Source of the DNA: Nitrososphaerota archaeon
GTDB taxonomy: Archaea; Thermoproteota; Nitrososphaeria; Nitrososphaerales; JACQRY01
Direction of reading: 5' to 3'
Assembly (NCBI GenBank): GCA_016184315.1
Contig: JACPCU010000008.1
Location: 1-64,000 of the forward strand
Length of the DNA: 64,000 nucleotides
The translations under genes were made by a program, and so were the position numbers. Numbering within the stretch: the stretch's first letter is position 1; each line of letters opens with the position of its first letter. Positions 3,560 through 4,627 of this stretch are shown here, piece by piece. A model generated the notes under the pieces. That model was not told the DNA's origin. It ran no database searches and saw only the letters and a list, made by a program, of their open reading frames with translations.

Positions 3560-4627
3560 ATGGTTGACTTTTACACCGAGAGGACAGTGAAATGGGAAGA
3601 CGGTGAAGTGGTTCTCATAGACCAGACGAAGCTTCCTCTGCGTCTCCAGTACATCAGGTGTAGAAGCCATGTTGAAGTCGCGGATGCGATTAGAAGCATG
3701 GCTGTGCGTGGAGCTCCGGCTATTGGCGTGGCTGCTGGGATGGGTCTTGCGCTGGCGGCACGGAACAGTAGGGCCAACAGTCGTCAAGGACTGCTCTTCG
3801 AACTTGGGAAAGCGTCTGACTTGCTGAGGTCGACGAGGCCCACGGCGGTGAATCTGCCTTGGGCGTTGGAGCGTGTGATGCAGGCAGCTAGGAGTGCACG
3901 TGTTGGGAGAGATGAGGTTGTGAGAGCAGTGATAGATGAGTCAGTGAAGATGGGCGAAGAGGATGTGGGGAATAACCGTACTTTGGGACGGTGGGGAGCC
4001 TCCCTGATCAGGGATGGGGAGACTATCCTCACGCACTGCAAATGGCTTGTATAAGGCCAGCAGATTGCAGGGGCTCTTGCCACGGTCGGGTACGGGACAG
4101 CCCTAGGCGTCGTTAGGGCTGCAAGGGAGGAGGGGAAAAAGCTCAGGATCTATGTGCCTGAGACTAGACCTTCGCTTCAAGGAGCGCGTCTGACGGCTTA
4201 CGAGCTTTCTGCTGACGGCTTCGACGCTACTCTTCTGGCTGATTCAGCGGTGGGCTACTTGATGTCTAGGGGCTCGATTAGTCGTGTGATTGTTGGTGCA
4301 GATAGGGTGATGGGGACTGGTCATGTCTTCAACAAGATCGGAACTTATGGTGTTGCGGTCCTTGCTTCTAGGCACGGGGTTCCTTTTCACGTTGCTGCGC
4401 CTCTTTCCAGTTTCGACTTCAAGGGCAGGTGGGATGAGGTTAAGGTTGAGGAGAGGAGCAGCGCGGAGATTGAGAAGATTCGCGGCAGGAGGATTGCTCC
4501 TCTGGGAGTCAAGGTGTTTAACCCTGTGTTCGACGTGACTCCTCCTGAGCTGGTGACATCTATTATAACTGAGAGAGGTGTCTTGACGCCTCCCTATGGG
4601 AAGTCGATCCCTGAACTGCTGTGTTAG
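3560..4627 (+). CDS. mtnA: S-methyl-5-thioribose-1-phosphate isomerase, interrupted by a 24-nt BHB-like intron
   Basis: Belongs to the aIF2B/MtnA family, which isomerises methylthioribose-1-phosphate to the ribulose form in methionine salvage. Exon 1 (3560-4041) holds VRGAPAIGVAAGMG and ends inside the active-site signature THC. Exon 2 (4066-4627) begins with the rest of it, [11 protein letters not shown]. It then carries ETRPSLQGARLTAYEL, GADR with the catalytic Asp, NKIGTY and AAPLSSFD. Read straight through, translation stops at TAA 4051-4053... within 4042-4065, after HCKWLV. Without that segment the ORF is 347 aa, normal for the family. The track lists two pieces (3500-4054, 4154-4627). 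I use ATG 3560 (MVDFYTERTVKW) because it matches the family N-terminus. The exact family member, MtnA rather than R15P isomerase, is judged from THCNAG and QGARLTA. Confidence 0.85.
4042..4065 (+). other. Predicted 24-nt BHB (archaeal) intron in mtnA mRNA
   Basis: The segment lies between AA (4040-4041) and T (4066) of one Asn codon, directly after the catalytic Cys codon. Fold seen in the sequence: CTGC (4036-4039) pairs perfectly with GCAG (4060-4063) as a 4-bp central helix. The bulges are AAA (4040-4042) and ATT (4064-4066), 3 nt each. TGGC (4043-4046) pairs with GCCA (4056-4059) as the inner helix, with a 9-nt loop. Cutting after the second nt of each bulge, the known rule of the archaeal splicing endonuclease, removes exactly these 24 nt. 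The outer helix is weak. Length is a multiple of three, but the segment carries TAA in frame, so it is not a tolerated insertion. Confidence 0.78.

Follow-up and report, generated by a model that had tools for sequence, protein, structure and literature searches.

The mtnA gene of this uncultured archaeon, which encodes the sulfur-recycling enzyme S-methyl-5-thioribose-1-phosphate isomerase (MtnA), is interrupted by a 24-nt segment that is, in our opinion, almost certainly a bulge-helix-bulge (BHB) pre-mRNA intron. As judged from the sequences, it would be cut by the splicing endonuclease (EndA) and its exons joined by the RtcB ligase, and it appears to be old in the phylum and lost in many lineages. 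A BHB-type intron in the mtnA coding sequence had been proposed in an earlier note made from the letters of this DNA. We consider the proposal strongly supported, because 38 introns of variable length occupy one and the same codon, their helices carry compensatory changes, and their predicted spliced products are invariant at the junction. The computations yielded a unique restoring deletion, the structural motif, the 38 same-site introns, covariation, a conserved product, and the presence of the enzymes in the genome. Here, the window is the whole stretch of DNA analysed, i.e., the first 64 kb of contig C28 from a draft genome of 2.0 Mb (35 contigs, 92% complete).

The interrupted reading frame and its BHB motif

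In the window ORF reading, unspliced mtnA runs on the forward strand from the ATG at 3560 through THC-K-W-L-V to a TAA at 4052-4054. When all deletions of 3-60 nt with starts at 4015-4059 were scanned, exactly one, 4042-4065 (24 nt), restored THCNAG; its ends coincide with the BHB cut points. The earlier note had held that the borders cannot be shifted without changing the product, and removal of the segment gives the 347-aa MtnA that it had predicted. The spliced ORF (3560-4041 joined to 4066-4627) carries the THCNAG and GADR motifs and matches the family model TIGR00512 (salvage_mtnA) over its full length with 394.3 bits, above the curated cut-off of 279; the unspliced fragment scores 133.2 bits against the same cut-off. 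The spliced protein also matches the solved structures 1t9k and 2yrf, and an 11-residue stretch of it is identical in aligned 1t9k. The cysteine of the THC motif is the residue established as catalytic in MtnA. The codon split by the intron is that of Asn and adjoins the TGC codon of this cysteine, which agrees with the position next to the catalytic residue that had been claimed for the intron. The features are collected in Table 1.

Table 1. Elements of the interrupted mtnA gene and of the BHB motif at its exon-intron borders (window coordinates; a slash within a codon marks the intron position)
Feature	Positions	Strand	Remarks
mtnA exon 1	3560-4041	+	ATG start; ends with AA of the split Asn codon AA/T, after TGC
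24-nt putative BHB intron	4042-4065	+	in-frame TAA 4052-4054; unique restoring deletion; same-site introns in 37 other genomes
mtnA exon 2	4066-4627	+	T/GCA GGG ... TAG; family and structure matches of the spliced protein
Central helix H, 5' strand CTGC (exon)	4036-4039	+	pairs with GCAG 4060-4063
5' bulge AAA	4040-4042	+	predicted cut after base 2; AAA in 33 of 38 introns, AAT in 4, AAG in 1
Inner helix, 5' strand TGGCTT	4043-4048	+	thermodynamic fold; covariation in relatives
Inner helix, 3' strand AGGCCA	4054-4059	+	pairs with 4043-4048, one G-U; fold and covariation
Central helix H, 3' strand GCAG (intron)	4060-4063	+	pairs with CTGC 4036-4039
3' bulge ATT	4064-4066	+	predicted cut after base 2; base 3 may pair with A4035

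The segment has the parts expected of a BHB motif: a 4-bp central helix (CTGC with GCAG) between two 3-nt bulges (AAA and ATT), which place the cuts at 4041/4042 and 4065/4066, and an inner intronic helix h' of six pairs. The same helix and bulges, the pairing of TGGC with GCCA, and cuts after the second bulge base were described in the earlier note, and this geometry removes exactly 4042-4065. The span of 4036-4070 that the note assigned to the structure is right as to anatomy but not as to its end, since GCAG is present twice: the structural copy lies at 4060-4063, whereas that at 4067-4070 belongs to the exon. For the outer exonic helix h, few pairs are seen (GCA with TGC in the single fold; C9-G66 and N10-N65 in the consensus, columns that are also codon-constrained), and for this reason the motif may not be fully canonical hBHBh'. 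The 3' bulge may be of 2 rather than 3 nt, because folds pair A4035 with U4066. Of 127,860 positions in the window, 3, the mtnA site among them, have eight Watson-Crick pairs arranged in this way on the two sides of 24 nt. The thermodynamic fold of the intron region alone is not significant (z = -1.65). The decisive support for the mtnA intron is comparative, not thermodynamic.

Introns at the same codon in related genomes

With the spliced MtnA as query, the comparison covered 60 relatives, 400 genomes of the class, and 30 chosen genomes. Within the order, 20 genomes besides that of the window carry an intron of 21-43 nt in mtnA, always at the identical base; the remaining copies in which the junction was read are uninterrupted. 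A covariance model built on the same-order introns and run over 398 genomes of the phylum identified 17 further mtnA introns, for which both the codon and the base within it are again identical, all of them outside the class and 19-34 nt long; its weak matches, 33 nt long with E of about 0.001, are mtnA genes that lack the intron. Thus, 38 mtnA introns (one in the window, 20 in the order, and 17 in other classes) share one codon position and phase (AA/Y, Asn). They are 19-43 nt long, and the length of 21 is not a multiple of three. Read-through is blocked in every case: these 21 shift the frame, and each of the 17 in-frame introns contains a stop. Splicing at the BHB cut points would give CNAG in 38 of 38, with the Asn codon (AAT or AAC) always split as AA/Y. 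The earlier note had suggested looking for the segment in mtnA of sister genomes, and this comparison found 37 other genomes interrupted at the identical site. A strain-specific tandem error in the assembly, which the note had named as a possible refutation, is refuted by this comparison, the lengths and sequences of these introns being different.

Both exons of the window gene keep the conserved MtnA sequence, at approximately 50-62% identity to relatives. It should be noted that the one genome of the same genus available for comparison (G001; 70% complete, 260 contigs) gave no mtnA match, and that among named public genomes the spliced MtnA matches only bacteria and distant archaea. Archaeal AmoA is found in four other families of the order, and not in the window genome or in the tested intron-bearing families; on these grounds, the order would be Nitrososphaerales and the host a non-ammonia-oxidising member of it. 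Three mtnA copies deserve separate mention. In the intronless gene L018 (genome G007, family f7), THCSTG replaces the near-universal THCNAG at the intron position. In G173 (contig C6:84796-85806, L163) and G327 (contig C24:3016-4036, L160), mtnA lies in several frame-broken pieces, away from the intron site, and these are sequencing errors or decayed genes.

Covariation supports the paired elements in the predicted register. In the alignment of the 21 introns from the order, pairing holds for 94.3% of 210 cells; 5 of 10 pairs have changed on both sides, and 24 cells are compensatory. None of 500 shuffles reached the observed paired fraction or covariation score, and sliding the register by 1-3 columns lowers the paired cells to 21-46%. 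RNAalifold finds the same helices unaided. The four pairs of the central helix are formed in all introns. In the inner helix, over all 38 introns (36 of them distinct), each of the 36 has pairs 1-3, and 35 of the 36 have pair 4; the exchanges observed in the distinct introns include U-A/C-G, G-C/A-U, and C-G/G-C/A-U/U-A.

Processing, competing explanations and history

The proposed processing follows from the motif. The splicing endonuclease would cut the two bulges that flank the 4-bp helix of CTGC and GCAG (AA^A on the 5' side, AT^T on the 3' side), and the RtcB ligase would join the exons, so that the Asn codon AAT is rebuilt and an active MtnA (THCNAG) can be made; in the predicted spliced junction, ...CACTGCAA is joined to TGCAGGGG. 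The length and sequence of the intron presumably drifted under the pairing constraint. Cleavage and ligation, as well as loss in preference to repeated gain, are what we infer as parts of the best explanation. The window genome encodes one splicing endonuclease (PF01974), best matched by the crenarchaeal chains 2cv8 and 3p1z_B, and one RtcB ligase. An alpha2-beta2 EndA has been assigned to Thaumarchaeota (PMC4090602), and efficient cleavage of relaxed BHBs has been ascribed only to the (alpha-beta)2 and epsilon2 enzymes (PMC6379350). The genome search returned a single PF01974 subunit and no partner for it, although an alpha2-beta2 enzyme should have two kinds of subunit.

Group I and group II introns are ruled out by the size of 19-43 nt. 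A ribosome that bypassed the segment in the manner known from T4 gene 60 would leave the mRNA uncut and would also produce one full-length protein, and the segment does form a hairpin. Nevertheless, the product needs a codon split as AA/Y, which a whole-codon hop cannot make; with such a hop, the last residue ahead of the gap would be Lys or Asn, or the residue at the landing site would be Ile, Asn, or Ser, where Asn is otherwise conserved. In addition, the segment ends match EndA cut sites in 38 of 38 introns, and the helices covary in the exact BHB register, so that translational bypass is very improbable. Still more remote is a pseudogene or an assembly error in the window genome. The genome is a draft and a stop breaks the mtnA frame, but 37 other genomes are interrupted at the identical site by introns of differing length and sequence, and both exons are conserved. 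Thus, sequencing artefact, pseudogene, and bypass are rejected in favour of a BHB intron on the grounds of same-site introns, split codon, and covariation.

How this intron came to its present distribution is less certain. On the mtnA protein trees, its presence needs nine changes, and a single clade of all intron-bearing mtnA genes is rejected (AU p = 0.0005). These results would suit several separate insertions into one preferred site, CTGYAA/Y of the active-site motif, the more so as the conserved coding sequence already supplies the CTGY strand of the helix. However, well supported branches force only two of the changes, and different classes have a loop in common (ATGGCTTTAAAGGCCAGCAGAA versus ATGGCTTTAAACGCCAGCAGAA). 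The introns of G020, a member of the order, and G437, of another class, match at 21 of 22 bases when the loop is counted in, a level reached in 0 of 2000 constraint-preserving null draws. Such identity between classes, although the carriers are not one clade, suggests from sequence comparison a single old intron with many, repeated losses; repeated insertion is in our view unlikely, although, with carriers that are not a single clade, parallel insertion or transfer may have taken place. A regulatory switch, as suggested in the earlier note, would add to the BHB-intron reading rather than replace it: the efficiency of splicing would gate how much MtnA is made, since a message left unspliced would yield only a dead fragment of approximately 160 aa. 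No unspliced copy is readable in any of the 38 cases, and the intron persists across deep divergence. Yet this stop is often supplied by the TGA or TAG, conserved among the introns, that opens the inner helix, so that shared ancestry explains the blocked read-through, and many relatives lack the intron. A switch is possible and compatible with the data, in which the unreadable unspliced copies are the sole relevant fact, but we hold it to be improbable. Equally doubtful is the wider scenario in which a homologous intron predates the split of several classes, was kept for control of MtnA output via the active-site codon, and was lost elsewhere.

Other sites in the genome and comparison with known systems

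In the 464 kb of this genome that were scanned (the window plus stretches that together make up 400 kb), no clear second ORF restored by a BHB with eight Watson-Crick pairs was found besides mtnA; eleven other candidates have seven pairs each, and several of them clearly fuse neighbouring genes. A search of the genome with the intron model returned no second copy, the next match having E = 8.5. Near mtnA, the tRNA gene at 4905-5001 (+) is called Ser(act) by ARAGORN. Removal of 20 nt (4937-4956), with BHB-like borders that include two G-U pairs, gives a regular tRNA-Arg(UCG), and these 20 nt are probably a non-canonical intron that interrupts the anticodon stem. Near the contig end, the 409-aa ORF at 486-1715 (+) has the look of an archaeal integrase, with putative C-terminal features resembling HxxR...Y.

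The closest known counterpart is the cbf5 pre-mRNA intron, reportedly described by Watanabe in 2002. According to a study of 2020, no archaeal mRNA other than that of cbf5 had by then been reported to contain an additional BHB intron (PMC7714728). Its introns, with quoted sizes of 33, 36, and 39 nt, occur in Desulfurococcales and Sulfolobales (Yokobori 2009, PMC2738675). Like the mtnA intron, that of cbf5 is a short BHB intron in a coding sequence, with lineage-specific presence and loss; its splicing has been demonstrated, whereas that of mtnA is deduced from sequence, and the cbf5 intron is linked to a hetero-oligomeric EndA. The mtnA introns further differ in gene and lineages, in their size of 19-43 nt, and in interrupting the active-site motif of a metabolic gene. 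By its location, the mtnA intron does not belong to the cbf5 intron family, and cbf5 itself is uninterrupted in the window genome, as it is in relatives with a full copy. The mtnA intron is not mentioned in the open-licence papers searched, and an unseen report is possible. With mtnA as the second archaeal coding gene with a BHB intron after cbf5, such introns would extend to a metabolic gene and to other lineages in at least two classes, where they are often absent. The minimal introns described here, 38 in number and as short as 19 nt, offer a natural series for testing the substrate limits of EndA and allow the gain and loss of mRNA introns in archaea to be measured; automatic annotation would truncate or split real genes such as these.

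Other systems share single aspects with mtnA. HVO_1309 has a cleaved BHB site in its 5' UTR (PMC7714728); in both cases EndA would act on an mRNA, but the HVO_1309 site has no frame to restore. In an archaeal virus, units of 12 bp have been put forward as introns (Peng et al., as summarised in PMC2738675); they are likewise tiny in-gene insertions proposed to be spliced, and differ in being viral, in their unit size, and in that their splicing is undemonstrated. The non-canonical tRNA introns of archaea, with relaxed BHBs, resemble the mtnA intron in size class, motif, and presumed enzymes, and differ in residing in an RNA gene rather than an mRNA. The mtnA intron adds a new gene and new lineages to a known mechanism.
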